Below are positions 13,749 to 41,317 of a stretch of DNA of 41,724 bases, in pieces; within the stretch, counting starts at the first letter, position 1; each line of letters opens with the position of its first letter. This stretch comes from Flavobacteriaceae bacterium (GTDB lineage: Bacteria; Bacteroidota; Bacteroidia; Flavobacteriales; Weeksellaceae). The DNA is taken from NCBI GenBank assembly GCA_031277475.1, contig JAITMJ010000141.1:1-41724 (forward strand), read 5' to 3'. A program made the translations under genes and the position numbers. Under the pieces are notes generated by a model, which saw only the letters and a program-made list of their open reading frames with translations, searched no databases and had not been told where the DNA came from.

Positions 13749-13862
13749 AAGAAATATTTGTATTTCGTGAAAATCATTTAACTTTACCTCATGTTTTAAA
13801 ATTATCATTTAGAGGCATTATTTAGATTTTAAAAATCGAGTCTTTATTCTACAAGTCTAAAA

Positions 13863-14432: not shown

Positions 14433-14518
14433 ATTTGAAAAATTTACTAATTTTGAATTTCAATCTCGTCTTTATAAACAAGACCTCGAAAATCCGAACT
14501 TCGTAACGAAATAAAAAA

Positions 14519-15418
14519 ATGAAAAACACAAAAATTATCGCAATCTTCGCGCTTTTTGCAATCGTATTTTCTGCTTGCACCGGCGATAAAATTTCTTTCG
14601 ATGCATCGGGAAGTTTTGAGGCAGAAGAAACCATTATTTCTTCAGAATCGGCGGGCGTTATCAAAGAATTTAAAATCGAGGAAGGACAAACTTTGAAAGC
14701 CGGACAAAACATCGGCTATATTGACAGCGTTCAACTTTATTTAAGAAAACAGCAACTGCTCGCACAAATCAATGCAGTGGTGAGTAAAAAACCCGATGTT
14801 TCCGTGCAAATCGCCGCTTTGCAATCTGAATTGAAAACGGCGGAAAGAGAAAAAATCCGAATTTCAAATTTGGTAAAAACCAATTCCGTACCCACGAAAC
14901 AATTGGACGATGTGGAAGCACAAATCGAAGTTTTGAACAGACAAATTGCGGCACAAAAATCTGCGTTAAATATTTCTACGGAAGGCATCAGCAAAGACGC
15001 GATTTCTCTGCAAGTGCAAATCGAACAACTGAATGATCAACTCTCGAAATGCAAATTAATCAATCCGACTGCCGGAACCGTTTTAGCGAAGTATGCCGAA
15101 ACAAATGAAATGTCGACTGTCGGGAAACCGCTTTACAAAATCGCCGATTTGTCGAACATTATTTTGCGGGTTTACATCACCGGAGATCAACTGCCAAAAG
15201 TTAAATTAAATCAAAATGTAAAAGTGCTGACGGACGATGGAAACGGCGGTTTCAAAGAAACTTCCGGCACGATTTCGTGGATAAACGATAAAGCGGAATT
15301 TACGCCGAAAACCATTCAAACCAAAAATGAAAGAGCGAATATGGTTTATGCCATAAAAGTGAACGTGAAAAACGACGGCTCCTACAAAATCGGGATGTAC
15401 GGGGAAATCAGGTTTTGA
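14519..15418 (+). CDS. HlyD/membrane-fusion-type lipoprotein adaptor
   Basis: The 299-residue protein has a lipoprotein signal (MKNTKIIAIFALFAIVFSAC), a first half lipoyl segment (SSESAGVIKEFKIEEGQTLKAGQNIGYIDS), a long coiled-coil hairpin (about residues 65-165, from LRKQQLLAQINAV to QIEQLNDQLSKC) and the second half of the lipoyl and barrel domains (TAGTVLAKYAETNEMSTVGKPLYKIADL). This is the architecture of periplasmic adaptors of ABC exporters (YhiI/YbhG type), which link an inner-membrane pump to a TolC-like channel. The usual ATPase and permease genes do not follow: the next genes are convergent. It is therefore an orphan or partner to a pump elsewhere. Confidence 0.88.
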   Translation: MKNTKIIAIFALFAIVFSACTGDKISFDASGSFEAEETIISSESAGVIKEFKIEEGQTLKAGQNIGYIDSVQLYLRKQQLLAQINAVVSKKPDVSVQIAALQSELKTAEREKIRISNLVKTNSVPTKQLDDVEAQIEVLNRQIAAQKSALNISTEGISKDAISLQVQIEQLNDQLSKCKLINPTAGTVLAKYAETNEMSTVGKPLYKIADLSNIILRVYITGDQLPKVKLNQNVKVLTDDGNGGFKETSGTISWINDKAEFTPKTIQTKNERANMVYAIKVNVKNDGSYKIGMYGEIRF

Positions 15419-15427
15419 GGGAAAATT

Positions 15428-15670
15428 TTAATAATCTTCGTCTTCATCATCGTATTTTGCGAGTTCTTCATCGCACCAATTGAAGGCGGCTTCTATGATT
15501 TTTGTGGCTTCATCGGCGATGCTTTCTTCGTCGTCGCCTTCCAAATCGTCCATCCATTCCACTTCTTCCTCCTCAACATTTAAAATAAATCGCGGATATT
15601 CCGTATGAACCACAAACAAATCTTCAGGAAAATCCGAATTATCGGCTATTAAAAACTTTGGTAATTTCAT
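15428..15670 (-). CDS. Small highly acidic hypothetical protein
   Basis: I do not recognise this 80-residue protein. It begins with a hydrophobic-polar MKLPKFLIADNSDFPEDLFVVHTEYPRFILNV segment that looks like two beta strands, then becomes strongly acidic (EEEEVEWMDDLEGDDEES and a YDDEDEDY tail) around a helical EATKIIEAAFNWCDEELAKY. It has no signal peptide. Acidic small proteins can be protein-binding adaptors or inhibitors, but nothing here shows which. It ends 9 bases from the convergent HlyD-like gene and lies just after the GT39-like gene on its own strand, so it may share that transcript. Confidence 0.65.
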   Translation of the reverse strand: MKLPKFLIADNSDFPEDLFVVHTEYPRFILNVEEEEVEWMDDLEGDDEESIADEATKIIEAAFNWCDEELAKYDDEDEDY

Positions 15671-15707
15671 TTTTTTTGTATTTAAATCTTTCCCAAAGAT
15701 AGTGATT

Positions 15708-17048
15708 TTATTGGTATTTATTTTTGCTGATTTTTATTTTGCTCGAAACTTTATACTCCGTCAATGTCGTTTTTTGAAGCGTATCTTTCGGTTGAAACGT
15801 GATTTTAACTCTCGGATTTACAGTGCTTATCAGTTCGGCAACTTGAACTTTGTCTAAGTTTTGTTTGATTATTTCCTGATTTTTTTCTTCGTCGATATAA
15901 AATTTTAAAGACGCTTTTTCTAAATGTTCTGTTTTTAAAAATTGGGAAATCTGTTTCCTGTTTTCTAAATAATTTCCTTTGGAAAGCCAAGTGAAAGCGA
16001 AACCGACAGCCAAACTGAGCAGCGTAACGGCATAAGTGTATTTCCCAAAAATTTGCAACAATTTTTTAAAATAAACCATCCAAATCAAGAGAATAAACGG
16101 CGATAAAAGCCTGTAATCCATAGCATTAACGGAATAAACATATTGAATAAAATAAGAACACACTATTCCGAAAACTCCCATAAACACGAAAAATCTTTCT
16201 GTTTCCGAAAGTCCGTTTTTTGCGAAAATAAAAATCATCAGAATGATATTTAAAGCACCGATGCCGTAAATGGCATAATTGATGCTTCTTCCCGCCGGAT
16301 CTGCGATGTGTATGAACGGATTGAAACTCGTAGCCAAACCTTGGAAAAGTTCCACTAAAAGTTTAGGCGTGGAATGTAAACCGATTTCCAAAAATTGATT
16401 GACATAATTTTCATTAAAATAATCAATAAACAGAAATTTATACAAAACGATGAAACACAATCCGACCAAAGACGAAGCGATAAATATTTTCGAATATCTT
16501 TTTTTGAAACTTAAAACCCCGTAAACAAAGCATCCGCCAATGAAAAACAATGCGCTGTACCGGATGTTGAACAGCAGAATCAAAATTAAACTTAAATAAA
16601 AAACAGCTTTTGTTTTTTCTAAATTTCCAAGTATAATTTTGCGTGAAATATAAAGAAATAAAAACACGAAAGGCAATATCAGCGGCTCGCTCATCGTGTA
16701 TGAAAAAATGGAAACATAACTGAATAATCCGCAGATTAACAACGTTTCCTTGAAATAAAATTTCTTTTTTGCGGCAAACCAAATCATAAAAAAACAGGCA
16801 GCAATTCCCAGAATTTTGCTACCCCAAAATTCGCCTAAACCGAACATTGTAAAAAATTTCAAACTGAGCGGATAGCCGAGCGGCGTTGTGGTGTTGTCAA
16901 TCACCGGAAAAGCGTCTGCAGTTCGCATAAAACGTATAGAATCGGGATTTGTCCTTCCTTTTTCGTTTAGTAAAAACCGAAGGATAATCATCACGAAAGT
17001 GGCAACAATTAAAAAGATTTGGAGAAGTTTTTCTTGTGGTTTTTTCAT
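15708..17048 (-). CDS. Polytopic membrane protein, GT39/ArnT-like glycosyltransferase candidate
   Basis: The 446-residue protein has roughly ten hydrophobic segments and the N-terminal pattern of lipid-linked glycosyltransferases of the GT-C fold: after the first helix it reads NPDSIRFMRTADAFP...TTPLGYPLSLKFFT, placing an acidic residue (D in PDS) in the first external loop as in ArnT/PMT relatives. The C-terminal 90 residues after the last helix are soluble. A second protein of the same plan is at 30605-31687 (SPDSFDYFKIADHLP...PFFYPLLLKIV), so these are paralogues. The sugar donor would be a polyprenyl-phosphate sugar. Family assignment is by pattern only. Confidence 0.65.
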   Translation of the reverse strand: MKKPQEKLLQIFLIVATFVMIILRFLLNEKGRTNPDSIRFMRTADAFPVIDNTTTPLGYPLSLKFFTMFGLGEFWGSKILGIAACFFMIWFAAKKKFYFKETLLICGLFSYVSIFSYTMSEPLILPFVFLFLYISRKIILGNLEKTKAVFYLSLILILLFNIRYSALFFIGGCFVYGVLSFKKRYSKIFIASSLVGLCFIVLYKFLFIDYFNENYVNQFLEIGLHSTPKLLVELFQGLATSFNPFIHIADPAGRSINYAIYGIGALNIILMIFIFAKNGLSETERFFVFMGVFGIVCSYFIQYVYSVNAMDYRLLSPFILLIWMVYFKKLLQIFGKYTYAVTLLSLAVGFAFTWLSKGNYLENRKQISQFLKTEHLEKASLKFYIDEEKNQEIIKQNLDKVQVAELISTVNPRVKITFQPKDTLQKTTLTEYKVSSKIKISKNKYQ

Positions 17049-17148
17049 TTTGCTGTTTCTTTTAATTTACCAATAATAACCGAAAAATCAATCATCTTGA
17101 GTATGTTTTTAATCTGTGATACACATTAATTACAAATTTTTTTAATTT

Positions 17149-19209
17149 TCAATTCTTTAACTTTTTATAAAACTTCACGCCGCAATTTAAAAATTTCTTG
17201 AAATCTTCTTTGGACATATATCCGGAAACGGGATGGTTGATCACCTTTCCGTCCGGCGTTATCAGCGCGTAATGCGGCTGAGAATTGTTGTTGAAATTCA
17301 CTTCCTGAAACATACTCCAGCGGTCGCCGATGGTTTCTATTTTTTTCATTTGTCCGTTTCCTCTGTCTATTTTCGTTTGCATATTTTCCGGAAGTTCCTC
17401 ACGATCATCTACATACAAAGATGCAAGCACGACATCATTTTGCAAAATCGGCAAAATATCCGGTTCGCTCCAAACAAATTCCTCCATTTTTCGGCAGTTT
17501 TCGCAGCCGTAGCCGGTGAAATCTATCAGAATCGGTTTGCGTTCTTTTTGTGCTATTTCCACCGCTTTGAAATAATCGTGTTGAGGATTCAGCCCCAAAA
17601 TTCCGGCGTTTTCATCGTGAAAATAACTGACGTTCAGAGGTGGCAAAATTCCGCTCAAAAGTTGAAGTTTCGGCTTGTCCGAAGGAATTAAACCCGGAAT
17701 TAAATAAATTAAAAATCCGATTCCCAAAACGCCGAAAATTTTCCTCGCGGTTGAAATTTTTTCTTTCTTGTCGTCGTGCGGAAACCGGATGATTCCGAAT
17801 AAATATAGAATCAAACCGATGCTTATCAATATCCATAGTGCGATGAAAAGTTCGCGTTTCAGGTAAAAAGTTTTGGAAACCAAATCGGCTTTTGAGAGAA
17901 ATTTCAGCGCGAGTGCCAATTCTATAAAACCGAGCGTTACTTTCAGCGTGTTCATCCAGCCGCCGGATTTCGGCAAACTTTGCAACGCCTGCGGAAACAA
18001 TGCCAACAAACCGAAAACGATTGCCCAAGACAAACCAAAACCTGCCAATGCGAATGTGAGAACCATCGGAATATTTACGGAACTGTCGCTCAAAACATTT
18101 CCCAAAATGGTTCCCAAAATGGGACCCGTGCACGAAAACGAAACCAAAACCAAAGTGGTTGCCATAAAGAAAATTCCCAAAATTCCGCCGGCATCTTCGG
18201 CTTTTGACGATTTATTGGTGAGCCAACTCGGCAATGTGATGTCGAAATATCCGAAAAAACTGAAGGCAAAAAACAGGAAAATCGCAAAAAAGGAAAGGTT
18301 CAGCCAAATATTGGTGGAAATTTCATTAAAAACATTTCCGGCAATGCCGTCAACAATATGGAACGGCAAACTTAAAGCAGTGAAAATCAACAGAATAAAT
18401 AATCCGTAAATCCAAGCGTTTCTTTTGCCTTTTTTTCCGCTTCCTTTGGTGAAAAACGAAACTGTGAGCGGAATCATCGGGAAAACGCAAGGTGTGAGCA
18501 ACGCCAAAATTCCGCTCAGAAAACCGAGAAATAAAATTTTTAAATAGTTGGTTTCCAATTTGTTGCCTGTTCCGCAATCGGTTAAAGGATTTTCGGAATC
18601 CAAACTTTCTATTTTCAATTTTTGAGGATCGAGAGCGGGATTTTCAGTAATGTTGTTAATGTTTTCAATCGAAGTTTTTATCGGGGCGACGGTATCTTTC
18701 GCCGGATTTTCAGTCGGAATATTTTCTTCGATTTCAGTTTTTTGAGCCGAAATTTTTTGTGAAAATTCCAAAGTATTCGGGGCGAGGCAAGTTCTATCGT
18801 TGCACGTTTGATAGCGAATTTCCACAACCGCATTTCCGGGTTTTGAAACGTCTTTCAGTTTGAATTTTTGTTTAAAAAGAACACTGTTCGAATAATAAAC
18901 TATGACTACTCCAAAGGCTTCGGAAAATTCGGAATGTTTTTTCCCGACTTCCGTAAAACCACCGATTGGCACGATGTTTTCGCCGGAAATTTTCATTTCG
19001 GTCGGTATTCCGGAATCTTCGGGCAAATCTTTGGAATAAATGTGCCAACCTTCGTCAATAGTAGTATTTATAACGGCTTCGTACAAATTGTTTTCCAAAT
19101 TTTTCACCTCGAATTTCATTTTTACGGGGTCTTTAATTTGGGCGTTAAAGCCCTCTGTTCCGAAAAAGGGGAAAATTAGGAAAGTGATTATGGATATTAT
19201 TTTGTTCAT
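17149..19209 (-). CDS. dsbD: Thiol:disulfide interchange protein DsbD
   Basis: The 686-residue protein has all three DsbD parts. An N-terminal signal peptide and periplasmic alpha domain carry C136-NDRT-C141; a central polytopic domain carries the redox Cys pair C241 (TPCVFP) and C360 (SFSCTGP); a C-terminal thioredoxin-like domain carries C569-EN-C572. DsbD moves electrons from cytoplasmic thioredoxin across the inner membrane to periplasmic thiol proteins. Length exceeds the E. coli enzyme (about 565 residues), chiefly through a low-complexity PT-rich linker after the alpha domain. The signal-peptide region (FPFFGTEGFNAQ) is encoded by DNA resembling a dispersed hairpin found at 38789. A 16-bp unit lies twice in tandem just upstream of the ATG (19216-19247). 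Confidence 0.95.
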   Translation of the reverse strand: MNKIISIITFLIFPFFGTEGFNAQIKDPVKMKFEVKNLENNLYEAVINTTIDEGWHIYSKDLPEDSGIPTEMKISGENIVPIGGFTEVGKKHSEFSEAFGVVIVYYSNSVLFKQKFKLKDVSKPGNAVVEIRYQTCNDRTCLAPNTLEFSQKISAQKTEIEENIPTENPAKDTVAPIKTSIENINNITENPALDPQKLKIESLDSENPLTDCGTGNKLETNYLKILFLGFLSGILALLTPCVFPMIPLTVSFFTKGSGKKGKRNAWIYGLFILLIFTALSLPFHIVDGIAGNVFNEISTNIWLNLSFFAIFLFFAFSFFGYFDITLPSWLTNKSSKAEDAGGILGIFFMATTLVLVSFSCTGPILGTILGNVLSDSSVNIPMVLTFALAGFGLSWAIVFGLLALFPQALQSLPKSGGWMNTLKVTLGFIELALALKFLSKADLVSKTFYLKRELFIALWILISIGLILYLFGIIRFPHDDKKEKISTARKIFGVLGIGFLIYLIPGLIPSDKPKLQLLSGILPPLNVSYFHDENAGILGLNPQHDYFKAVEIAQKERKPILIDFTGYGCENCRKMEEFVWSEPDILPILQNDVVLASLYVDDREELPENMQTKIDRGNGQMKKIETIGDRWSMFQEVNFNNNSQPHYALITPDGKVINHPVSGYMSKEDFKKFLNCGVKFYKKLKN

Positions 19210-19215
19210 TTTTTT

Positions 19216-19247
19216 GAAGTTATGAGGTTATGAAGTTATGAGGTTAT
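19216..19247. repeat. Two tandem 16-bp units directly upstream of dsbD
   Basis: GAAGTTATGAGGTTAT occurs twice without spacing at 19216-19231 and 19232-19247. It is immediately 5' of the dsbD start (minus strand), so copy-number change could alter its leader. Confidence 0.8.
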
Positions 19248-19330
19248 GGTGCTCATTTTTTTTGTTTTATTAACGGGGCAAAAATGCTGATTTTTTTTAT
19301 TTATTCGTTTGTAGTTTTCCATTTTTTAGG

Positions 19331-20437
19331 TTATTTTTTTACTTTCCAATATCCGCCTTTGTCGCCACCGATGCGTTTTATGAAGCCATCTGTTTTTAAT
19401 TTTTGCATTCTTCGAATAATCGTTCTTCTGGACTTTCCTGTCTGAACAGCAATTTTATCAATGGTAATTTTGGGCATTTGTTGTATTAAATCAATTATTT
19501 TTTGATTTACAGTGTCATTTTCAGTGCCGTTTTCAGTGTCGATTTTCTCCGCAGTTTTCTGACCATTTTTCTGACCACTTTTTTCATTATCTTTTGCCTC
19601 AATAAACTCGGAGATTTCGCCTTTGGCAAGTTGAATAAGCACCGGAAGTTTATTTTCCAAAATTCCGGAAATGTAGTCTATTAGTGGTTTCGTCTGTTGT
19701 AAATCGGCATGCGCTCTGTCGTAAGGAATTTTTCCCGAAAGCAAATCGCATTGATGTAAAGTTTTTAAATAATTTTGGCGATCATCGCTGCGAATAACAA
19801 TCATCGGATAATTGTGCCTCAAAAGAATATAATTTACGAGAAGTCTGGCAATTCGTCCGTTGCCGTCTTCAAAAGGGTGAATACGAATATAGCGGTAATG
19901 AAACATCGCCGCAAGTTCTTCCGGTTTTAGTTTTCCACGCTGTTCTTCGTTGCAATACCATTTTGCCAAATCGCTTACAAGCGAAGGTGTTTCTTCGGGC
20001 GAAGCGTAATCAAAAATTTCACCCGTAGACGTAACCACAGAATTGGGACGTGTTTTGTAGACGCCGACATGGATTTTGTAGCGATAATTGCTGTCTCTGC
20101 TCATTTTGTAGAAATCGCGAACCAAAATAGTTTGATTTAATTCTCGAATAAAATGTTCGGATAACATTCTGTTTTTGTCCTTTGCCGCTGCTTTCATCAA
20201 CTCCAAACCGACATTATGCGCTTTCATTTCCTCATAATCCTGAATACTTGCATTGCCGATGGTATCGCCGAAAAGCAACAGCAATTTGGTTTGTTCGTAT
20301 GTGAGTGTATTGCCTTCCAGATGATTGGAATTGTAATTAAAATCAATCATAAATTGTTGATTTATATCCCGTTCCAATTTTTCATCGAGAGGTTGCAAGG
20401 CTCTCCATTCTTTTAATAATTTTGGAATATTTGCCAT
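19331..20437 (-). CDS. Fic-domain AMP-transferase, class II, with C-terminal winged helix
   Basis: The 368-residue protein has the Fic motif H187-PFEDGNGR195 and, near its N-terminus, the class II inhibitory motif S37-NHLEG42 ((S/T)xxxE(G/N)), whose Glu folds over the active site to restrain ATP binding. Fic enzymes usually transfer AMP to a hydroxyl side chain of target proteins. After a polar linker (residues about 283-310) comes a winged-helix segment ITIDKIAVQTGKSRRTIIRRMQKL, as in many Fic-HTH fusions that may autoregulate. It reads as intact. It is followed by DUF2867 upstream on the same strand, and a second Fic gene lies at 22465. Confidence 0.92.
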   Translation of the reverse strand: MANIPKLLKEWRALQPLDEKLERDINQQFMIDFNYNSNHLEGNTLTYEQTKLLLLFGDTIGNASIQDYEEMKAHNVGLELMKAAAKDKNRMLSEHFIRELNQTILVRDFYKMSRDSNYRYKIHVGVYKTRPNSVVTSTGEIFDYASPEETPSLVSDLAKWYCNEEQRGKLKPEELAAMFHYRYIRIHPFEDGNGRIARLLVNYILLRHNYPMIVIRSDDRQNYLKTLHQCDLLSGKIPYDRAHADLQQTKPLIDYISGILENKLPVLIQLAKGEISEFIEAKDNEKSGQKNGQKTAEKIDTENGTENDTVNQKIIDLIQQMPKITIDKIAVQTGKSRRTIIRRMQKLKTDGFIKRIGGDKGGYWKVKK

Positions 20438-21131: not shown

Positions 21132-21434
21132 TTTTTTTCGTTTTGTATTCTTTTTACGGCGATTTTTTTTATGTTTCCCAATGCTTCAAATAGCAAATTT
21201 TTGCAAAACACCACAATAAATCGCATTTTTCTTCTTAACTTTACGGCGAATTTAAGCCCCCTGTCCCCCGAAGGGAGAGTTTTCGCCGATTCCAATAAAA
21301 GAAAAAAAGCAAAAGCGGGAAAAACTTAAAAACAAAAGTATAATTTAATAATTAAAAAAAACCAAAAATATCCAAACCAAATGGAGCGTGCGAAGTCTCT
21401 CTCCTTTGGAGAGGGATTTAGGGAGAGGAAAAAA
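21132..21434. repeat. Intergenic region with dispersed hairpins before etfB
   Basis: TTTAAGCCCCCTGTCCCCC followed by GAAGGG (21251-21275) matches a hairpin element at 38786-38812. It is followed by GTTTTCGCCGATTCC, the inverse of the AATCGGCGAA repeat family. Just before the etfB ATG, CTCTCC (21399-21404) pairs with GGAGAG (21408-21413) in a TTT-loop hairpin belonging to another common repeat. No gene is supported here. Confidence 0.7.
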
Positions 21435-22181
21435 ATGAAAATATTAGTTTGTATCAGCAGTGTTCCGGACACCACTTCGAAAATTAATTTTACGGCAGAC
21501 CATTCTGCGTTCGACAAAACCGGAATCCAATGGGTCATCAATCCTTTGGACGAATTCGCCTTGACAAAAGCCGTGAAACTTCAGGAATCTTTGGGCGCAA
21601 ATGTTACCGTAATCAACGTAGGAACTGCGGAAACGGAACCTGTGATTCGGAAATCTTTAGCCATCGGTGCCAATGATGCGATTAGAATCAATATGGAACC
21701 GAAAGACAGTTTTTCTACTGCAAAAGAAATTGCAAACGCCGTTCAAAACGGAGGTTTTGACGTGATTCTTTGCGGCAAAGAATCCATAGACTACAACGGA
21801 AGTTCCGTTCCCGGAATGCTCGCACAACTGCTGAATATTCCTTTTGTAAACGCGGCAGTCGGTTTGGAAATCAACGGAAATGAAGCCGTTGCCATTCGCG
21901 AAATCGAGGGCGGAAAAGAAAATATTTCCGTAAAACTTCCCGCTGTGGTTGCCGGACAAAAAGGTTTCGTGGAAGAAAAAGATTTGATTATTCCGAATAT
22001 GCGCGGAATTATGTCGGCGCGCACAAAACCGCTTCAAGTTTTGGAACCGACCGCCACAGACGTGAAAGTAGAAAGTGTTTCCTTTGAAAGCGTTCCGCCG
22101 AGATCTGCCGTAAAATTGGTTTCTCCCGACAATTTAGACGAACTCGTGCGATTGCTGCACGAAGAAGCGAAAGTGATTTAA
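21435..22181 (+). CDS. etfB: Electron transfer flavoprotein beta subunit
   Basis: The 248-residue protein begins MKILVCISSVPDTTSKINF, as typical of EtfB, and contains the AKELANAVQNGGFDVILCGKESIDYNG-type segment (here AKEIANAV...GKESIDYNGSSVPGMLAQLL) and VKLPAVVAGQKGFVEEKDL. EtfB with EtfA accepts electrons from acyl-CoA dehydrogenases and related flavoenzymes and passes them to the quinone pool through ETF-QO. The frame is open to 21381, but that extension translates a dispersed repeat; the ATG at 21435 fits the family. Unusually, etfA does not follow at once: a Fic gene and a GLPGLI gene lie between. Confidence 0.95.
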   Translation: MKILVCISSVPDTTSKINFTADHSAFDKTGIQWVINPLDEFALTKAVKLQESLGANVTVINVGTAETEPVIRKSLAIGANDAIRINMEPKDSFSTAKEIANAVQNGGFDVILCGKESIDYNGSSVPGMLAQLLNIPFVNAAVGLEINGNEAVAIREIEGGKENISVKLPAVVAGQKGFVEEKDLIIPNMRGIMSARTKPLQVLEPTATDVKVESVSFESVPPRSAVKLVSPDNLDELVRLLHEEAKVI

Positions 22182-22464
22182 AGCAGTAAGCAATAAGCAG
22201 TAGGCAAAAGGCTTATAATGTTAAATCTTTAAGTTTTTAAATCTTTAAATCAGAAACAATGTATATCCTTGAATTTTGAATAATTTAAAAGTCCGTAGGA
22301 CTTAATGTGAATAACCGCAGGCGTGAGCCTGCGGGAAAAATAAAAACCATGAAAGTCCGCTCATTTCTCCCCTCCTTCGGAGGGGTCGGGGGAGGAAGCG
22401 GCACAAAAACAAAAAACAAAAAATTAAACTTTGACAAAAAAGAAAACACACAAAACACAAAAAA
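22182..22464. repeat. Cluster of dispersed hairpins between etfB and the Fic gene
   Basis: Four repeat types are packed here: a micro-repeat AAGCAGTAAGCAATAAGCAG (22181-22200); AAGTCC-GTA-GGACTT (22289-22303); CCGCAGG-CGTGAG-CCTGCGG (22315-22334); and CCCCTCC-TTC-GGAGGGG (22369-22385). The last is followed by TCGGGGGAGG. No gene is seen. Confidence 0.8.
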
Positions 22465-23253
22465 TTGAATAACTTATCAACATATCTCAAAGAAGAAAAA
22501 GAAGCAAAACGGAAAGGCGGTTTGTATCATAAAACTCAGGTCAATTTGGCGTACAACTCAAACAAAATTGAGGGAAGCAAACTGACGGAGGAGCAAACTC
22601 GCTATATTTTTGAGACGCGAACAATTGGTTTTAAAGATCAAGAAGCCGTGCCTGTTGATGATATTATCGAAACTTCGAATCACTTTGTGGCTTTTGATTA
22701 TTTGCTTGATACGATTGACGAAGCGTTTTCAAATACCGTGATTAAAGAATTTCATCGTATTTTAAAAACAGGAACTTCCGATGCCGCAAAAAATTGGTTT
22801 AATGTCGGCGATTGGAAAAAACTGCCAAATGAAGTCGGAGGAACAGAAACCACTTTGCCGCAAAATGTAGAAAAAGAGATGAATAAACTGAACGATTGGT
22901 ACAATTCGGTAAACCGTCATTGCGGGCTTGACCCGCAATCTCCCGAATACTCAAAATTTCTATTGGAAAATATTGTGGAATATCATTATCGTTTCGAGAA
23001 AATTCATCCGTTTCAAGACGGTAACGGAAGAGTCGGGCGTTTAATCATATTTCGAGAATGTTTGAAAAACGGCATCGTTCCGTTTATTATAGACGATAAT
23101 CACAAACAATTTTATTATCGTGGTTTAAAAGAATTTGAAAATGCAAGAGGTTATTTGATGGACACCTGCCTGTCGGCACAAGATACTTATACAGAGTGGA
23201 TTAAGTATTTTTACGGTGGTTTGTCGGGTGAGAGAGAATATGAAAAACAATAA
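22465..23253 (+). CDS. Fic-domain AMP-transferase, class II, with a palindromic repeat in the coding region
   Basis: The 262-residue protein begins with an apparent TTG start and has the inhibitory motif S32-NKIEG37 and the Fic motif H181-PFQDGNGR189. No DNA-binding domain is seen. Residues about 151-161 read RHCGLDPQSPE; the DNA is TTGCGGG-CTTGA-CCCGCAA (22920-22938), a dispersed palindrome often translated as CGLDPQS in other genomes. It inserts in frame in the loop before the Fic core. The later YLMDTCLSAQDTYTEW region is ordinary Fic sequence. The gene lies between etfB and etfA, 14 bases before the GLPGLI gene. Confidence 0.88.
   Translation: MNNLSTYLKEEKEAKRKGGLYHKTQVNLAYNSNKIEGSKLTEEQTRYIFETRTIGFKDQEAVPVDDIIETSNHFVAFDYLLDTIDEAFSNTVIKEFHRILKTGTSDAAKNWFNVGDWKKLPNEVGGTETTLPQNVEKEMNKLNDWYNSVNRHCGLDPQSPEYSKFLLENIVEYHYRFEKIHPFQDGNGRVGRLIIFRECLKNGIVPFIIDDNHKQFYYRGLKEFENARGYLMDTCLSAQDTYTEWIKYFYGGLSGEREYEKQ
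22915..22947. repeat. Dispersed palindrome embedded in the Fic gene
   Basis: TTGCGGG (22920-22926) pairs with CCCGCAA (22932-22938) around a CTTGA loop. Translated in frame it gives CGLDPQS, a known signature of this palindrome family in bacterial proteins. Confidence 0.85.
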
Positions 23254-23266
23254 AAAATTATAAATA

Positions 23267-24106
23267 ATGAACAACCTCAAAAAAATAATATTAATCCTAA
23301 CCATTTTCCCTTTTTGTGGAGCAACAGGCTTTGCCCAAACCCACCGATTTATATATGAATTAAAATACAAAACAGATTCTACTTCCGAGCATTACGAAAA
23401 AGAAAATGCGGTTTTGGATATTACCGGAAACAATGTGCAATATTATGAATATCAAGCCATTGAATATGATTCTATCAATACGAATAGTCCTATCAATTCT
23501 TTTTCCTCCTATGATTTTTCGATTGCAAAATTGAAACGAGAATTGGCTTCGGAAACGAACAAAAATTATTATCTTTTAAACGATACTTATTGGGTTTTTG
23601 AATCCAATGATGCTATAGATTGGAAGTTGGAACCGGATATGAAACAAGTCGGCGAATGGAAAGTTCAAAGAGCGACCGCAAATTTCGGCGGGCGACATTG
23701 GACGGCTTGGTTTGCAAACGAAATTCCGTTTCCGGAAGGTCCGTATAAATTCAATCGGCTTCCCGGTTTGGTGGTAGAAGTTTCGGATTCTAAAAATAAT
23801 TATTTGTTTAATTTAGCCAAAATCGAACATCCAAAAAATCCGAATACCAATATTGTAGAAACGCTTTTCAAGAAAAAACCGATGCCGATTTCTTTTGAAA
23901 AATATCAAAAACTTTTGCTCGATTTTTACAGCGATCCATATCACAGATTTCGGAATATGGAAGAAGGAACTTGGTCTATCGGAATCACAGACGGAACTGA
24001 AGTGAAAACAAAAGAAGGCTTAAATAAAATTACAAAAGAAAAGCAGGAAAGAATAAGAAAAGAAAATAATCCCATAGAATTAGACAAAGCGATAAAATAT
24101 AATTAA
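23267..24106 (+). CDS. GLPGLI-family secreted protein
   Basis: The 279-residue protein has a signal peptide ending in ATGFAQ and the family signature FPEGPYKFNRLPGLVVEV at about residues 157-174 (the GLPGLI motif, here RLPGLV). The preceding W-T-A-W-F-A-N-E-I-P and the NYLFNLAKIEH following it also fit. GLPGLI proteins are Bacteroidetes-restricted, of unknown role, and sometimes lie near TonB-dependent transporters or peptidases; none is here. Its signal-peptide DNA resembles, in reverse, the dispersed hairpin seen near 38789. It follows the Fic gene by 14 bases. Confidence 0.85.
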   Translation: MNNLKKIILILTIFPFCGATGFAQTHRFIYELKYKTDSTSEHYEKENAVLDITGNNVQYYEYQAIEYDSINTNSPINSFSSYDFSIAKLKRELASETNKNYYLLNDTYWVFESNDAIDWKLEPDMKQVGEWKVQRATANFGGRHWTAWFANEIPFPEGPYKFNRLPGLVVEVSDSKNNYLFNLAKIEHPKNPNTNIVETLFKKKPMPISFEKYQKLLLDFYSDPYHRFRNMEEGTWSIGITDGTEVKTKEGLNKITKEKQERIRKENNPIELDKAIKYN

Positions 24107-24120
24107 TTTGAAAATGAGAC

Positions 24121-24212
24121 AATTAGATAATTTGGGAATTTGGGAATTTGAAAATTTTTAAATCTAAACCTTGAATTTTGAACCTTGAACCTTAAACTTT
24201 AAACTTTAAACA
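24121..24212. repeat. Short-word micro-repeats in front of etfA
   Basis: Words such as TTTGGGAAT (three times) and then CCTTGAA, CCTTAAACTTT, AAACTTT in succession fill this stretch, ending 12 bases before the etfA ATG. Confidence 0.7.
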
Positions 24213-24224
24213 AAAAAAATAGTT

Positions 24225-25172
24225 ATGATATTCGTTTACGCAGAAAACATCAACGGAATTTACAAAAAAGCGGCTTTCGAGGCTGTGGCTTACGCAAAAG
24301 CAATCGCAGATTTGCAAGCCGATTCCGTATCGGCAATCACCATTAATCCTACGGATTCTTCGGATTTACTTTACAAATATGGCGCATCGAAAGTGATTCA
24401 CATCAAAGACGACGGCTTAAAAAATTTCAGCGCAAAGGCTTTTGCTGCGGCAATCGCTGAAGTTGCAGACGGAAACATCATCGTTTTTCCGCAAACTACA
24501 GATGCCGCTTCCATCGCTCCGATGTTGGCAGTCGTGAAAAATTATGCGTTCATCAGCAATGTTTTGTCGGTTCCGGAAAACCTGTCGCCGTTTCGGGTGA
24601 AAAGAAAAGTTTTTTCCGGCAAAGGCTTTGAACACGCAAAAGCCGACGGAAACGGCGTAGTTGTTTCTGTTTCTCAAAACGCTTTTGGCGCAAAAGAATC
24701 TCCGGTTTCGGGAGCGGAAGAAATCAAAAATCTTTCCATCGCGAATGATGATACGAAAGTGATTTCCCACGAACAATCCTCGGGAAAATTGGATTTAAAA
24801 GAAGCCGACATCATCGTTTCCGGCGGTCGCGGAATGAAAGGTCCCGAAAATTGGGGAATGTTGGAAAATCTGGCAGACGTTCTGGGCGCGGCTTTGGCTT
24901 GTTCCAAACCGGTGGCGGACATCGGTTGGCGACCACATTCCGAACACGTCGGGCAAACCGGAAAAGCCATTGCTCCGAATCTTTATGTTGCAGTCGGGAT
25001 TTCGGGTGCCATTCAGCATTTGGCGGGCGTGAACAGTTCCAAAACAATCGTAGTGATCAACAACGATCCCGAAGCACCGTTCTTTAAAGCCGCAGATTAC
25101 GGCGTAGTCGGCGATGCACTGCAAATTGTTCCCGCACTCACCGAAAAAATAAAAGCGTTGAAACACGCATGA
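24225..25172 (+). CDS. etfA: Electron transfer flavoprotein alpha subunit
   Basis: The 315-residue protein has an N-terminal domain like EtfB and the C-terminal FAD domain with RPHSEHVGQTGKAIAPNLYVAVGISGAIQHLAG, the characteristic FAD-binding signature of EtfA, and IVSGGRGMKGPENW earlier. With EtfB it forms the soluble heterodimer that shuttles electrons from dehydrogenases. The pair is separated here by about 2 kb holding a Fic gene and a GLPGLI gene; in flavobacteria the two subunits are usually adjacent. Confidence 0.95.
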   Translation: MIFVYAENINGIYKKAAFEAVAYAKAIADLQADSVSAITINPTDSSDLLYKYGASKVIHIKDDGLKNFSAKAFAAAIAEVADGNIIVFPQTTDAASIAPMLAVVKNYAFISNVLSVPENLSPFRVKRKVFSGKGFEHAKADGNGVVVSVSQNAFGAKESPVSGAEEIKNLSIANDDTKVISHEQSSGKLDLKEADIIVSGGRGMKGPENWGMLENLADVLGAALACSKPVADIGWRPHSEHVGQTGKAIAPNLYVAVGISGAIQHLAGVNSSKTIVVINNDPEAPFFKAADYGVVGDALQIVPALTEKIKALKHA

Positions 25173-26003: not shown

Positions 26004-27761
26004 ATGCCTTTAGACGAATTTCTCTTTCATAAATTTGTAAAATATTTCAGGAACAAGCCTGCGGATGCGGCTTTGCAGGAACGCAGCGTGAAGCTCGAAA
26101 AAATTCAGCCGCGTCTGACTGTTTTGGCAAGAGCCCTGACGGGAAATACCATTGATATTTTTCCGGCTATCAAAGAAGGTGGCTATAAGGGGAATAATTT
26201 TTTTCTGCCCGAAACTTTTTCGTTTTATAAAGATGCTTCGCTCAATCTTTCTTTTTATCTGTTTCGGATTTTGTATTTATCCGTTCAGCAAAAATTATCA
26301 TTGAACTGGTTTCAATCGGCTTCGTTGAGCGATGAAGATGCTCTGCTGTATGCACAGGAAAATTCATCTTTGGTTTTGGAACATCTTTTTACCGAATATC
26401 CTTCTGCAAAACATATCTACGAACAATTTCTTTCAACAGCCGAACCGGATAAAAATCAAATCATAGATTCGGCATGGCTTTACGGAAAATGGATGGCAGA
26501 CAGCAAGGAAGTTCAGACACAGGAAGAAATTAATTCAACTTTATCCAAAATAAAAACGGCAGAAGAAAATTCGCCGAAAACCATTATCAAATCGAAGCCG
26601 GTGGAGGAAATCGTGAATCTGATTATCGATACCAAACAGCAGGAAGATTATGTGCTCACACACAATTTTGAAAAGGTGGATACCGCCGATGAATTTAGTG
26701 GAACGTGGCGCGACTTTGACGGCGATGATGAACTGGAAAATCACAGCGATGCATTAGACGAACTGAATATGAAATATACCGTCCGTGTGGACGATGTGGC
26801 GCACAGTGTGTATGAAGCGAGTTTTACCGACAACGCAAAAATTGCCGAAAGCAAGGAATCGGAAAGCGAAGGTCGGTTTGTGTTGTACGACGAATGGGAT
26901 TGCTATAAAAAAACGTATCGAAAAAATTACAGCAAAATTTATCCTTCGCAATTTGCGGCAACGGATGCCGATTATTATCAAAATACGCTTTTGCAAAACA
27001 AATCCATATTAACGCAATTGCGCAAAATGCTGGCAAGCATCAACAACAAATGGCAACAGCAACGCCTGCAAACGCAGGGAAAAGAAATTGATATTGACAT
27101 GGCTGCCAATCGTTTTGCCGATTTGATTGCCGGCTGTACGCCGTCCGATAAAGTGTATCTTTCCGACAGAAAAAAAGAAAAAGATTTGTCTATTTTGTTG
27201 TTGTTGGACATCAGCCTTTCAAGCGATAGTTATGCGGCGGACAATCGTGTGATTGATGTGGCAAAGCAAACCGCTATTCTGTTCGGCGAAATTTTGAATG
27301 AATACCGGATTGATTTTTCCATTCACGGGTTTTATTCCAAAACAAGAAATTTTGCATCCTATATTACAGTGAAAAATTTTGAAGAAAAATGGGACAGCGC
27401 AAAATATGGTATCGGTACTTTGCAACCTGCGGGTTATACTCGAATCGGTCCGGCATTGCGACATTCGGGAGCGCTGCTGCAAAACCGCAACTCAAAAAAT
27501 AAATGGGTGATTTTGCTTTCGGACGGAAAACCCAACGACTACGACCGGTATGAAGGAAAATACGGCATCAACGATATTAAACAGGCATTGCGTGAATTGA
27601 GCGGTAACAATATCAACACGTATGCACTTGCCATTGAAGCCACTGCAAAATATTATCTGCCGCAAATGTTCGGACACGACCATTATCAAATCGTATCATC
27701 ACCGGTTGAATTATTAAAATCATTAGTGAAATTGTATGAAAGAATACGGTATGGAGGATGA
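26004..27761 (+). CDS. norD: NorD-like VWA protein, nitric oxide reductase activation
   Basis: The 585-residue protein has a C-terminal von Willebrand factor A domain with a full MIDAS site: D402-I-S404-L-S406, the Thr in GYTRIG and the Asp of LSDGKPND. The N-terminal 380 residues are the helical part found in NorD/CbbO-type proteins. NorD works with the MoxR-type ATPase NorQ in maturing nitric oxide reductase. Here no norQ or norB is in the window, though norE and a norF-like gene lie downstream. The last 98 bases, including the stop, are repeated at 29456-29553 after the inserted methyltransferase cassette. Confidence 0.88.
   Translation: MPLDEFLFHKFVKYFRNKPADAALQERSVKLEKIQPRLTVLARALTGNTIDIFPAIKEGGYKGNNFFLPETFSFYKDASLNLSFYLFRILYLSVQQKLSLNWFQSASLSDEDALLYAQENSSLVLEHLFTEYPSAKHIYEQFLSTAEPDKNQIIDSAWLYGKWMADSKEVQTQEEINSTLSKIKTAEENSPKTIIKSKPVEEIVNLIIDTKQQEDYVLTHNFEKVDTADEFSGTWRDFDGDDELENHSDALDELNMKYTVRVDDVAHSVYEASFTDNAKIAESKESESEGRFVLYDEWDCYKKTYRKNYSKIYPSQFAATDADYYQNTLLQNKSILTQLRKMLASINNKWQQQRLQTQGKEIDIDMAANRFADLIAGCTPSDKVYLSDRKKEKDLSILLLLDISLSSDSYAADNRVIDVAKQTAILFGEILNEYRIDFSIHGFYSKTRNFASYITVKNFEEKWDSAKYGIGTLQPAGYTRIGPALRHSGALLQNRNSKNKWVILLSDGKPNDYDRYEGKYGINDIKQALRELSGNNINTYALAIEATAKYYLPQMFGHDHYQIVSSPVELLKSLVKLYERIRYGG
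27664..27761. repeat. norD 3' end, copy A
   Basis: 98 bases including the TGA stop recur at 29456-29553 with four differences, all at synonymous third positions (CAC/CAT, TCA/TCG, GGA/GGC, GGA/GGG). Confidence 0.97.
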
Positions 27762-27868
27762 ATTATTTATGGAAAGAAGGATTTTTTGTAAATTGCAAAT
27801 GGATAGGAGTTCTATCCTGCTTTAAGGAGCGACGGTACTAAATGTTAACATCCATGGGAGTTTTATAC

Positions 27869-27876
27869 TAGCTTTG
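27869..27876 (+). promoter_or_regulatory. -7 element for the cassette genes
   Basis: TAGCTTTG matches TAnnTTTG and lies 12 bases before the methyltransferase ATG at 27888, suggesting the cassette brings its own promoter and a short leader. No clear -33 TTTG was identified. Confidence 0.45.
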
Positions 27877-27887
27877 ATATATATTAA

Positions 27888-28781
27888 ATGGAGACTCAAA
27901 TAGAAAAAGTGAAAACATTATTTAATGAAATGTCTGATGAATATGACAATCTAAATGATTTATGGTATAGATATTCATTTGACATAATAGACAATGTTCT
28001 TATAAAATATTTTAAACCTAAAACTACAAACGAAACAGCATTGGATATCGGTTGTGGAACAGGAATTCAATCACAAAGATTAGCGAAACTGGGATACAAT
28101 GTAACAGGAATTGATATTTCAGAAGGTCTGATTGAAAAAGTTAAACAAAAATTTGAAAAATTAAATCTGAGGGGACATAAGTTTTTACTTCATAATGCAG
28201 AAACTTTACCATTCCCAGAAAATAGTTTTGATGTAGTAAACTGTTGCGGACCAACTTTACCATTTATTGAAAACTGGGAAAGTACTTTGAAGGAAATTTC
28301 AAAATGCCTAAAACCAAATGGTTTATTCCTCTTAGAAATTGAAGGAAAGTGGAATTTTGATATTTTTTGGGAACTTTTAAGTTCGATTTTCTTTGATTGT
28401 TTGGACTATGACACTTCTATTAAAAAATCATTGAGCCATTTTAAAAATTTAAATAAAGGACATCACATAGATTATTCATTTAAAACAGAATCAGGTGCAA
28501 ATATTTCTATGCCTATCAAGTTATTTACCATAAGAGAGATTACCAAATCATTAGCTAAAGAAAATCTAACAATAACTAAAAGATGGGGTATTCATTCTTT
28601 AACAAATATTATTCCGAGTACAATATTGCACGAGGCAAATCCTAACGCTTTGACTAAACTCATATTTAGCATAACATCAAAAATTGAAAAAGGATTAAAT
28701 AATGTATTCCCAATCAATTCTTTTGCATGTAGTTTACTTCTCTTAATCAAAAATAATAAAAATGAAAATAGCAGAAATTGA
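27888..28781 (+). CDS. Class I SAM-dependent methyltransferase in the inserted cassette
   Basis: The 297-residue protein has a UbiE/COQ5-like methyltransferase core: DIGCGTG (53-59) for SAM binding, D76 in TGIDIS as the acidic residue of motif II, and the NAETLPFPENSFDVVNCC segment. The C-terminal 150 residues form a variable region that could bind the substrate, which cannot be predicted. Codon use is more AT-rich than in norD, with few of the GC-ending codons its neighbours use, suggesting transfer. Its last 20 bases overlap the next gene, so the two are probably translated together. Confidence 0.8.
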   Translation: METQIEKVKTLFNEMSDEYDNLNDLWYRYSFDIIDNVLIKYFKPKTTNETALDIGCGTGIQSQRLAKLGYNVTGIDISEGLIEKVKQKFEKLNLRGHKFLLHNAETLPFPENSFDVVNCCGPTLPFIENWESTLKEISKCLKPNGLFLLEIEGKWNFDIFWELLSSIFFDCLDYDTSIKKSLSHFKNLNKGHHIDYSFKTESGANISMPIKLFTIREITKSLAKENLTITKRWGIHSLTNIIPSTILHEANPNALTKLIFSITSKIEKGLNNVFPINSFACSLLLLIKNNKNENSRN

Positions 28782-29373
28782 TATTATAGTTAAAATTTTA
28801 GGATTTTTAGGTTCAATAGGAGTTATATTATTTGGGATTATTCAATACAAAAAGGGACAACGCTGGCAAAAAGCCAATATACTTCTGACCTTAATTGACC
28901 ACTTTGAAAATGATAAAAATATTCGTGTAGCAAGGGAAATGCTAGATTGGGATAAGCGTAGTATAATATTTGATGATACAAGAAAGATGATATTTGACAA
29001 TTCTATATTAATAAGAGCTTTAGCGGTTGTAGAGATGGATGATGATACTTTTACAGAGGAAGAAAGTTTTATTAGGGATGCCTTTGATTCTTTTTTTGAT
29101 TTTTTCCATAAGCTTTATTCTTTTCAAAAAAGCGAATTATTGAAATTCGAAGATTTCGCCTATTTTTTTTATTACTTTGAACTTATTCGCGATATTGAAC
29201 ACTATAAAAAAGGCAATGAAGGTTTAAAAGTAATTGTATCGAAATACATTGATAAATATCACTTTATTGGAATTAAGCATTTATTAAAACAGTATGAACG
29301 TCATCCTGAACCTTTAGATATAATGACAGAAGGCTCAAACAAACGGGCAAGACAATCTCGAAACAAAAAATAA
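28762..29373 (+). CDS. Single-pass membrane protein of unknown function in the inserted cassette
   Basis: The 203-residue protein has one N-terminal transmembrane helix (about residues 8-26: DIIVKILGFLGSIGVILFGII) followed by YKKGQRW and a helical, acidic cytoplasmic part (residues 35-180), with aromatic-rich patches (DSFFDFFHKLY and YFFYYFEL). A basic tail ends it. I do not recognise it; the layout of an N-terminal anchor followed by YKK.QRWxKA recalls small DUF4760-like proteins, but this is weak. It overlaps the methyltransferase gene by 20 bases and lies inside the norD tail duplication, so it belongs to the payload, not to the nor genes. Confidence 0.7.
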   Translation: MKIAEIDIIVKILGFLGSIGVILFGIIQYKKGQRWQKANILLTLIDHFENDKNIRVAREMLDWDKRSIIFDDTRKMIFDNSILIRALAVVEMDDDTFTEEESFIRDAFDSFFDFFHKLYSFQKSELLKFEDFAYFFYYFELIRDIEHYKKGNEGLKVIVSKYIDKYHFIGIKHLLKQYERHPEPLDIMTEGSNKRARQSRNKK

Positions 29374-29455
29374 GGAATTGACAAATTGATAGTTTAACTA
29401 TCTTGTTTCTCAATCCATTACAATGTTGGTTTCTACACGAAATTACCAATTCCAA
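29374..29455. other. Non-coding right end of the cassette
   Basis: It includes a small hairpin GATAG-TTTAA-CTATC (29388-29402) followed by TTGTTT, possibly a weak terminator for the two cassette genes. Just before copy B an in-frame TKLPIPKMF resembles the AKYYLPQMF of norD at protein level, so the homology may extend slightly further left than the DNA identity. Confidence 0.4.
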
Positions 29456-29553
29456 AAATGTTCGGACATGACCATTATCAAATCGTATCATCGCCGGTTG
29501 AATTATTAAAATCATTAGTGAAATTGTATGAAAGAATACGGTATGGCGGGTGA
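29456..29553. repeat. norD 3' end, copy B (detached tail)
   Basis: 94 of 98 positions match the norD 3' end at 27664-27761, and the encoded peptide up to the stop is identical. It lies directly before the leader of norE and is not attached to any larger open frame of norD. Confidence 0.97.
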
Positions 29554-29625: not shown

Positions 29626-30228
29626 ATGAATCAATCTGTTACGGCAACCGAAACCCAAGCCATCGATCATAAAAATTTTTTCTATCCGCCGGGCGGAATT
29701 TTGTTGTGGATTATCATTTTGCTGGAACTGCTCACATTTGGAATTGCGTTGATTATTATGGCGTACACTTCGTTGTCCGAAAAAGAAATTTTTCATGAAA
29801 CCGCCGCAAAACTGAATGCCGTTTATGGAACCGTAAATACCATTGTTCTGCTTACGAGTGGTTATTTTATGGCGATTTGCGTCAAACAATTCAAACTAAA
29901 AAATTACGAAAAAAGCAAACGATTTTTATATTTCACGCAGGCAACAGGATTGCTTTTCATCATTGTAAAATCGGTAGAATATTACCATAAAATTGCGGAA
30001 GGATTGACGTTGGGTTACAATACTTTTATGGATTTTTATTGGTTGCTCACGGGATTTCATTTGGTTCATGTGATTGTCGGAATGGTGATATTAATTGGTA
30101 TTTATATTTCCGGAAAAAAGAAAAATCACGATGAAGCCGCATTAAATTTAGAATCCGGAGCAGCATTTTGGCACCTTTGCGATTTGATCTGGCTGATACT
30201 GTTTCCGGTTTTATATCTGATTTTTTAA
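29626..30228 (+). CDS. norE: NorE-like cytochrome c oxidase subunit III family protein
   Basis: The 200-residue protein has about five membrane helices and the cytochrome oxidase subunit III pattern: PPGGILLWIIILLELLTFG at the N-terminus, HLVHVIVGMVILIGIYI and GAAFWHLCDLIWLILFPVLYL at the C-terminus. Its short length (200 versus about 260 for true CoxC) and position after norD fit NorE, an accessory subunit of nitric oxide reductase loci. The norD tail copy B ends 72 bases upstream. It would be in the inner membrane. Confidence 0.85.
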   Translation: MNQSVTATETQAIDHKNFFYPPGGILLWIIILLELLTFGIALIIMAYTSLSEKEIFHETAAKLNAVYGTVNTIVLLTSGYFMAICVKQFKLKNYEKSKRFLYFTQATGLLFIIVKSVEYYHKIAEGLTLGYNTFMDFYWLLTGFHLVHVIVGMVILIGIYISGKKKNHDEAALNLESGAAFWHLCDLIWLILFPVLYLIF

Positions 30229-30288: not shown

Positions 30289-30531
30289 ATGAAAATTTCT
30301 GTTCACACCGCTTGGATTTTATTAATGACGTCTGTAATTCTGATGTCTCTTTCCGTGATTTATCTTAAAAATACATCAGGCTTTGTTTTCATCATTTTGG
30401 GATTGTCTGCGGTAAAATTTTTATTGGTCGCTTTTCAATTTATGGAAATCAAAAAAGCCCATATTTTCTGGAAAATAATTTTAATGATTTTTATAACCGT
30501 TGTTTTTACGGCAATAGCAGGATTGGTGTAA
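30289..30531 (+). CDS. Cytochrome c oxidase subunit IV family protein, NorF-like
   Basis: This 80-residue protein has three hydrophobic segments and the pattern SAVKFLLVAFQFMEIKKAHIFWK, typical of small CtaF/NorF-like subunits (prokaryotic cytochrome c oxidase subunit IV family). It follows norE by 60 bases on the same strand, in the order norD-norE-norF seen in denitrification loci. It probably assists assembly of a nitric oxide reductase. Confidence 0.75.
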   Translation: MKISVHTAWILLMTSVILMSLSVIYLKNTSGFVFIILGLSAVKFLLVAFQFMEIKKAHIFWKIILMIFITVVFTAIAGLV

Positions 30532-32746: not shown

Positions 32747-32941
32747 CAGGTCAAACGCATTAAAATTTTATGAAAATAATACCATATTACAAATATTTTT
32801 AATGAAAAATAACTACATAGAAATATAGACACACATTTATTTTTTCGCTTTGTGAAAATCTATGTGTATAATATTTTGCAAAACTATGGTTCTATGTGGT
32901 TAGACATAATAATGTTCGAAGAATTTAATGCGTTTAGCCTG
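32747..32941. repeat. Long palindromic dispersed element, copy 2, with apparent terminal inverted repeats
   Basis: Positions 32758-32914 match the element at 11979-12139 (start GCATTAAAATTTTATGAAAA, internal TACATAGAAATATAG against CTATGGTTCTATGTGG, end GACATAATAATG). Here the element also has flanking inverted repeats: AAACGCATTAAA at 32753-32764 and TTTAATGCGTTT at 32924-32935, continuing outward as AGGT/CCTG-like matches. This suggests a complete MITE-like unit, of which copy 1 lacks the right end. The region otherwise holds no gene. Confidence 0.85.
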
Positions 32942-39428: not shown

Positions 39429-40013
39429 ATGAAATGTGAAAAACTGATTAAATTTCTGGAAAAATATGGAAAAGTTTCGGAAGCGGAACAGGGAAACCTC
39501 AATAAATATTTTGAGTTTTCGAGTGTGAAAAAAAAGCAAATTATCGTGGAAAAGAATTTTCCGTGCAATAAGTTGTTTTTTGTAAACGACGGTATTTTAA
39601 GAACCTACTACATCAACGATGGCGGTAGGGAAATCACCCGAATGTTGGCTTGGGAAAACAGGTTCATCACGAATATCGAGAGTTTCAGATATGCCACAAA
39701 AAGCCACGAAATCATCGAATGTGTGGAAGATGCGGAAATTTTGTACATCAGCCGAGAGCATTTTAAAAAACTTGTGAAAGCATCTCCCGATTTGAAAAGC
39801 GTATATGCCGATATTTTGGAAGAATACACCGCTTTTTATGTGAAACGTTTCGAGGTACTGAACACTTTTGATTTGAACAAAAAAATTCAGCATTTGAAAG
39901 AAGATTTTCCACCAGAAATCATTAAAGATTTGAACGACACTGTGTTGTCCTCCCTCATCGGAATTTCAAGAGAATATTTTGTGAAGAATAAAAATCTGTT
40001 TTACGGGAAGTGA
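39429..40013 (+). CDS. Crp/Fnr-family transcriptional regulator
   Basis: The 194-residue protein has a cyclic-nucleotide-binding beta-barrel (residues about 25-115, with CNKLFFVNDGILRTYYINDGGREITR) typical of Bacteroidetes Crp/Fnr regulators, a long dimerisation helix (about 118-145) and a C-terminal DNA-binding segment (LNDTVLSSLIGISREYFVKNKNLFYGK) with a helix-turn-helix shape. No Fe-S Cys cluster is seen, so it is not an FNR oxygen sensor; its ligand is unknown. The last 38 bases, with the stop, recur at 41133-41170 behind the PIN toxin cassette. The palindrome upstream fits autoregulation. Confidence 0.88.
   Translation: MKCEKLIKFLEKYGKVSEAEQGNLNKYFEFSSVKKKQIIVEKNFPCNKLFFVNDGILRTYYINDGGREITRMLAWENRFITNIESFRYATKSHEIIECVEDAEILYISREHFKKLVKASPDLKSVYADILEEYTAFYVKRFEVLNTFDLNKKIQHLKEDFPPEIIKDLNDTVLSSLIGISREYFVKNKNLFYGK
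39976..40013. repeat. Crp/Fnr gene 3' end, copy A
   Basis: 38 bases including the TGA stop (encoding FVKNKNLFYGK) are identical to 41133-41170. Confidence 0.97.
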
Positions 40014-40032
40014 AAATATTGTTTTTATTTTT

Positions 40033-40063
40033 TTTGTTTCGTTTATTTCGTTTAGTATATTTG
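40033..40063 (+). promoter_or_regulatory. Promoter of the HTH/PIN cassette
   Basis: TTTG at 40033-40036 and TATATTTG at 40056-40063 are separated by 19 bases and match the Bacteroidetes consensus TTTG-N17-23-TAnnTTTG. It lies 18 bases upstream of the antitoxin GTG. It lies inside the cassette, so the payload brings its own promoter. Confidence 0.8.
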
Positions 40064-41132: not shown

Positions 41133-41170
41133 ATTTTGTGAAGAATAAAAATCTGTTTTACGGGAAGTGA
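41133..41170. repeat. Crp/Fnr gene 3' end, copy B (detached tail)
   Basis: Identical over 38 bases to the 3' end of the regulator gene, stop codon included, but unattached to the rest of that gene. Confidence 0.97.
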
Positions 41171-41179
41171 TTTTTTTTC

Positions 41180-41317
41180 TTATTCTAATTTTCGGTTATT
41201 TTTTAGAATAGCGAATTTCTTATTCTAATTTTTAGGTTGTTTTTTAGAATAACGGATTTTTTATTCTAATTTTGGGGCTTGTTTTTAGAATAAGCCTTGG
41301 GTTCTTTTTTATTCCAA
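41180..41317. repeat. Tandem array of TTATTCTAA / TTAGAATAA hairpins
   Basis: TTATTCTAA occurs at 41180, 41220 and 41261 and as TTATTCCAA at 41309; each of the first three is followed about 23-24 bases later by the inverse TTAGAATAA (the first unit ends in TTAGAATAG). The period is about 40 bases. It lies between tail copy B and the operator pair. Confidence 0.88.

Follow-up and report, generated by a model that had tools for sequence, protein, structure and literature searches.

Among the closest described systems to the arrangement reported here is insertion with long target duplication, known from restriction-modification genes of Helicobacter pylori (Nobusato et al. 2000, as related in PMC1643837, PMC4978471 and PMC3031569), in which a selfish or addictive cassette with no transposase lies between long, directly repeated stretches of resident sequence of variable length and is polymorphic between lineages. 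Minimal mobile elements (Saunders and Snyder 2002, in the definition given in PMC3898611) are whole-gene cassettes that lie between conserved genes and move by homologous recombination alone, and cis-mobilizable elements (CIMEs) derived from integrative and conjugative elements (ICEs) or integrative and mobilizable elements (IMEs) accrete in tandem behind the 3′ end of a gene, with att repeats that include the gene end (PMC5704250). The toxin-antitoxin cassettes of superintegrons form arrays separated by related repeats, and addiction has been proposed as their stabiliser (PMC2654758). How toxin-antitoxin and similar cassettes pass from chromosome to chromosome without a transposase or integrase is an open question, and long target duplication was itself proposed without a proven mechanism. 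Here we describe contig JAITMJ010000141.1 of a Flavobacteriaceae bacterium (assembly GCA_031277475.1), analysed over positions 1-41,724 (the window), in which the 3′ end of norD is present in two copies on either side of a two-gene cassette. At least seven such loci, norD included, occur in this genome, and the others mostly carry toxin-antitoxin genes.

The norD locus is organised as follows, in window numbering.

26004..27761, plus strand: norD, VWA-domain nitric oxide reductase accessory gene, intact, its 3′ end being tail copy 1; homologues in 34 other genomes
27664..27761, plus strand: norD tail copy 1, in frame, stop codon included
27762..29455, no strand assigned: inserted cassette of 1694 bp between both norD tails; in about 20 relatives norE comes after norD
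27888..28781, plus strand: class I S-adenosylmethionine-dependent methyltransferase, UbiE/Methyltransf_11-like, 297 aa
28762..29373, plus strand: 203-aa protein with an N-terminal hydrophobic segment
29456..29553, plus strand: norD tail remnant, copy 2, adjoining norE, the native downstream side
29626..30228, plus strand: norE, COX3-like, directly 3′ of norD in about 20 relatives
30289..30531: COX4_pro-like gene, below its Pfam cut-off, 3′ of norE

The two tails form a direct repeat of 98 nt, identical at 94 of 98 positions (95.9%) and spaced by 1792 nt. The last bases of copy 1 are the norD stop codon, and copy 2 runs to the equivalent stop, 72 nt before norE. The second tail was recovered from the genome by tblastn of norD with E = 5e-15, so the repeat is not a matter of chance, and it is the sole gene-tail repeat of such quality within the window. 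All four differences between the tails are synonymous (CAC>CAT, TCA>TCG, GGA>GGC and GGA>GGG), and the methyltransferase gene and that of the 203-aa protein overlap by 20 nt. A family search of the payload proteins found no transposase or integrase family, no inverted repeat was found at the ends of the insert, and an Rfam search across it gave no match. The tail-cassette-tail anatomy is therefore confirmed as the earlier note had described it from the letters of the DNA, in the two 98-base tails with their stop codons, the four synonymous differences, the methyltransferase gene overlapping a second gene and the lack of integrase, transposase or inverted repeat. The G+C content of the payload is about 28%, against 40-42% in norD, and because equally low stretches lie 3′ of norE the composition of the payload alone is weak evidence. 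An extension of copy 2 upstream in the norD frame (from 29437 on) was judged chance-like.

The arrangement is confined to this genome among those compared. The genus is represented by one species, and the 34 other genomes with a strong norD homologue were drawn from the family, the order and the class. In all 34 norD gave a single match and no second tail, and norE lies after norD with a short gap in about 20 of the 34 loci, which is the single-tail state that the earlier note had proposed looking for in related genomes. Neither an arrangement shared by all relatives nor a duplicated tail lacking the cassette was seen, the second tail occurring in 0 of 34. At some Flavobacteriales norD loci (L013, L015, L017 and L019-L022) a gene of 321-329 aa, with a starting region LPEGHP, stands 3′ of norD with no second norD tail, and norE comes after that gene in several of them.

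The same anatomy recurs elsewhere in the genome. In 1.445 Mb (about half of the genome), with 897 open reading frames (ORFs) of 150 aa or longer, we looked for fragments of every gene on its own strand within 15 kb, excluding paralogous genes. Tail fragments were found downstream in 21 cases and upstream in 3, set against 14 head and 6 internal fragments, and the head fragments were mostly paralogues, promoter repeats or contig edges. An independent tblastn scan gave downstream tail fragments for 10 genes versus 1 for mid-gene segments, and a 400-kb replicon from Bacteroidota (Bernardetia), treated in the same way, gave one weak 53-nt match in 280 ORFs. Seven genes were left after inspection, identified by family or homology: norD and the following six tail-repeat loci.

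clpB: contig C93, locus L150
uvrD: contig C26, locus L083
metH: contig C42, locus L099
peptidase S46 gene: contig C40, locus L097; cassette with YafQ
acyl-CoA dehydrogenase gene: contig C30, locus L087; cassette with PIN
DUF1572 gene: contig C19, locus L076; cassette with an AAA_14 ATPase

The repeats that flank the inserts at these six genes measure about 41-216 nt. Across the family, the clpB tail peptide has 7 copies here versus 1 in every other genome with a hit (hits in 124 of 129 genomes in all), the uvrD tail 4 matches versus 1 in each other genome (67 with a hit) and the metH tail 2 matches versus 1 in each other genome (48 with a hit). Several further candidates were rejected as tail duplications: prophage-like paralogues (L145), short repeats by ddl/glmS (L147), intergenic repeats (L119) and paralogous genes (L069, L122, L085 and others). 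At L139 (contig C82, 399-10365) an Rhs-core orphan toxin/immunity array with repeated segments of 55-84 nt from a 175-aa gene is of a known kind and was likewise excluded.

In the clpB locus (1026-11580) seven fragments of the gene's own tail, 41-105 nt each, are spread across 8 kb behind clpB. They are separated by differing cassettes, which by Pfam and NCBIfam encode a HEPN protein with a nucleotidyltransferase, an HI1420-type antidote, a PIN protein, a Fic protein with a VbhA-like antitoxin and a RelB-like protein. A 179-nt repeat in this array (4232-4410 / 8044-8222) comprises the end of a cassette gene together with the clpB tail, and since it spans the end of a cassette gene the joint appears to be set by homology rather than by a clpB core or att site. 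At the uvrD locus (11542-20000) the tail is repeated at 16569, 17083, 18553 and 19442, and also at C26:20373, with cassettes that contain ParE and an Abi_2-like protein (Pfam/NCBIfam). Between the metH remnants (1384-4041), the last of them 48 nt long, lie an AbiEi/AbiEii pair and a cassette of 220 aa. Among the cassette proteins scanned with Pfam and NCBIfam none matched an integrase or transposase family. Toxin-antitoxin genes give a strong impression of being enriched in the cassettes.

Two side observations concern these arrays. Just before the first uvrD tail, next to GCCAAAA repeated three times, the frame of the gene body and that of the tail part, which points to a possible frameshift or to phase variation of the gene. 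One protein family of at most 168 aa, with no Pfam match, occurs at three places (L150 8232-8923, L083 18697-19385 and L119 5151-5648), two of which are gene-tail arrays, and is accompanied in two cases by a partner about 60 aa long; it is a cassette type common to different tails.

The two edges of the repeats behave differently. The right edge falls at the stop codon or within about 15 nt of it in most cases, and up to +51 in others, as expected if the homology between donor and resident DNA stops where the gene stops. The left edges range from -41 to -216 and vary within one array (-216, -94, -44 and -44 at uvrD), and inspection of them revealed no obvious common motif or core. The non-homologous joint is thus variable, with little or no microhomology, while homology stops at the stop codon. 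In a mirror case at L163 (contig C106, 4342-4589 / 10539-10786) a gene of 801 aa has its opening 248 nt duplicated upstream with 94% identity; this gene reads like a peptidase/ABC transporter, and the region between the copies resembles a peptide-maturation cluster.

The differences between the tails bear on their origin. Comparison of all remnants with the intact tail gave 42 synonymous and 30 non-synonymous codon differences. Under neutral decay about one quarter would be synonymous, and for a local duplicate in which one copy decays while the intact gene is under selection the expectation is 36-40%. The clpB remnants are not independent of one another; when they and the second uvrD remnant are set aside, 39 differences are left, of which 25 are synonymous, compared with that 36-40% (P = 0.0003-0.002). 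The uvrD tails differ in their stop codon, TAA versus TGA, and the metH remnant contains two stops. The synonymous excess across the tails favours import of one tail over local duplication: judged from the codons, the tails probably diverged mainly while both ended working genes, and one of them was imported from another lineage, with some decay afterwards. The earlier note had drawn the same conclusion from norD, where 4/4 synonymous changes are suggestive only (P ~0.02 against local duplication); it is the pooled excess that sustains it.

The anatomy, its recurrence, its absence from relatives, the toxin-antitoxin content and the synonymous excess are direct observations. Right edges bounded by the stop codon, left edges that vary, import of one tail, arrays and the lack of an enzyme are most simply accounted for by one-sided homologous recombination in the conserved 3′ ends of genes, iterated into arrays whose toxin-antitoxin genes would resist loss. 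We give this account a probability of roughly 0.5. Incoming DNA of a related lineage would carry the cassette behind a norD tail of its own, and the imported tail would pair with resident norD, so that the resident gene runs on into the imported tail and the cassette. An illegitimate joint upstream of the resident tail would close the other side, or else a circular donor would have recombined at the tail; the old resident tail would be left as a remnant before norE. Other gene ends of this genome would have undergone the same process. Each new tail would offer a further landing site and so give rise to arrays such as that of clpB. Flanking direct repeats would ease the loss of a cassette and toxin-antitoxin addiction would select against it, which is probably why toxin-antitoxin inserts are common. 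A donor might have entered by natural transformation; a ComEC-family gene is present in this genome, and we take Riemerella anatipestifer to be a member of the same broad group as the host. That species is naturally competent (PMC8383284). Naturally competent bacteria are known to carry out homology-facilitated illegitimate recombination (PMC3240628), and with one homologous and one non-homologous joint the anatomy fits a product of that process.

Several points weigh against this account. Some clpB left edges cluster at -93 to -105, as a site-specific core would also give. The proposed mechanism predicts hits in gene heads too, yet L163 is the one clean case. Non-synonymous changes are numerous in the metH remnant and in some of those at clpB, so that part of the divergence is later decay. 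A donor in which the cassette follows a norD with the other version of the tail was not found. The ComEC family is widespread, and the gene by itself is no demonstration of competence.

Three other explanations were weighed. If some process had duplicated about 50-200 bp of the resident target on insertion, both tails would stem from one resident norD tail and their differences would have accumulated later. The same gross pattern is published for the H. pylori restriction-modification genes, the repeat lengths vary here, and the clpB and metH remnants look partly decayed; the pooled synonymous excess speaks against a common resident origin, however, and a random duplication would end anywhere behind the gene, whereas the right edges are mostly at the stop codon. 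We therefore regard long target duplication as doubtful. Slightly more doubtful still is that the cassettes are remnants of integrase-borne, CIME-like elements, which would have entered gene 3′ ends by site-specific integration, bringing a replacement tail, and would then have lost their integrase and accreted in tandem. Such elements predict a regenerated tail with synonymous differences and a right edge at the stop codon, tandem accretion is known for CIMEs (PMC5704250), and the clustered clpB left edges would agree with them. At least seven unrelated target genes would, however, require different integrases; none of the scanned cassette proteins belongs to an integrase family, no shared core is visible, and the left edges at uvrD are -216, -94, -44 and -44.

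The assembly, in 156 contigs, could also have joined two strains of a mixed sample, placing the norD tail and flank of one strain before the tail and norE of the other, and the differences between the tails are like those between strains. The same anatomy is found at seven loci, however, and several different clpB cassettes lie inside one contig, which makes such a chimera unlikely, the least probable of the explanations considered; completeness is 98.3% and contamination 0.39%, and clpB, uvrD and metH tails beyond the first are absent from other many-contig draft genomes of the family. One-sided homologous recombination remains the reading we prefer. A wider picture can be offered tentatively, as a possible one: integrase-free accretion with the 3′ ends of housekeeping genes as repeated landing pads, each cassette bringing its own gene tail from a functional lineage and toxin-antitoxin cargo preventing collapse, so that the arrays would resemble a superintegron built of host tails.

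The cargo of the norD cassette itself is less readily classified. The methyltransferase is UbiE-like, yet scores far under the curated NCBIfam cut-offs, with no specific family, and is not of a DNA methyltransferase family; PADLOC returned only a generic methyltransferase-domain match to mad2. The 203-aa protein matched no Pfam, NCBIfam or PADLOC family, and its N-terminal hydrophobic segment suggests a single-pass membrane protein. The earlier note had proposed searching for the pair in other genomes: the methyltransferase has no strong match elsewhere in 316 genomes of the family, and homologues of the 203-aa protein were found scattered in Bacteroidota at about 31% identity, with no methyltransferase beside them in the loci inspected. 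The two genes are therefore probably not a fixed module. Viral contigs searched for the payload proteins gave no match, and phage and plasmid records held no close relatives of them.

Elsewhere in the window, an 84-nt repeat (39976-40059 / 41133-41210, 82% identical) involves the end of a 194-aa gene and is possibly an older tail duplication. A 99-nt direct repeat (12006-12104 / 32785-32883, 94% identical) has its copies 20.8 kb apart. At 21381-25172 a Fic-domain gene and a GLPGLI gene split etfB from etfA, which are normally adjacent, and no etfB tail repeat was found.

The loci described here resemble the known systems in traits given at the outset, and differ from each in particular ways. 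In contrast to long target duplication as its accounts present it, with restriction-modification cargo, the repeat here is a gene 3′ end bounded by the stop codon, the differences are largely synonymous, the cargo is mainly toxin-antitoxin and the tails are iterated into arrays. As in those accounts, the sequence is single copy in related genomes (norD, clpB, uvrD and metH), the comparison here being with other species only. The definition of minimal mobile elements in PMC3898611 includes no duplicated gene tail, and exchange there requires homology on both sides. Unlike CIMEs (PMC5704250), the scanned cassettes contained no integrase or remnant of one, the targets are many and unrelated, and the left edges vary. 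The repeats of superintegrons are attC sites (PMC2654758), whereas those here are coding fragments of housekeeping genes, no search for attC or IntI having been made. The suggestion in the earlier note of an unusual and possibly undescribed mode of insertion is narrowed by the closeness of long target duplication, minimal mobile elements and CIME accretion, but we found no description in the open-access literature of toxin-antitoxin arrays bounded by host gene tails or duplicated gene ends.

These data suggest that DNA lacking a dedicated integration enzyme uses conserved gene ends as landing pads. One genome provides seven loci or more, with about 15 junctions where both tails are readable, so that the donor and resident sides can be separated and the mechanism is testable. 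If the proposed mechanism is true, DNA could land at conserved gene ends quite generally, and the persistence of repeat-flanked cassettes would be accounted for by addiction modules.

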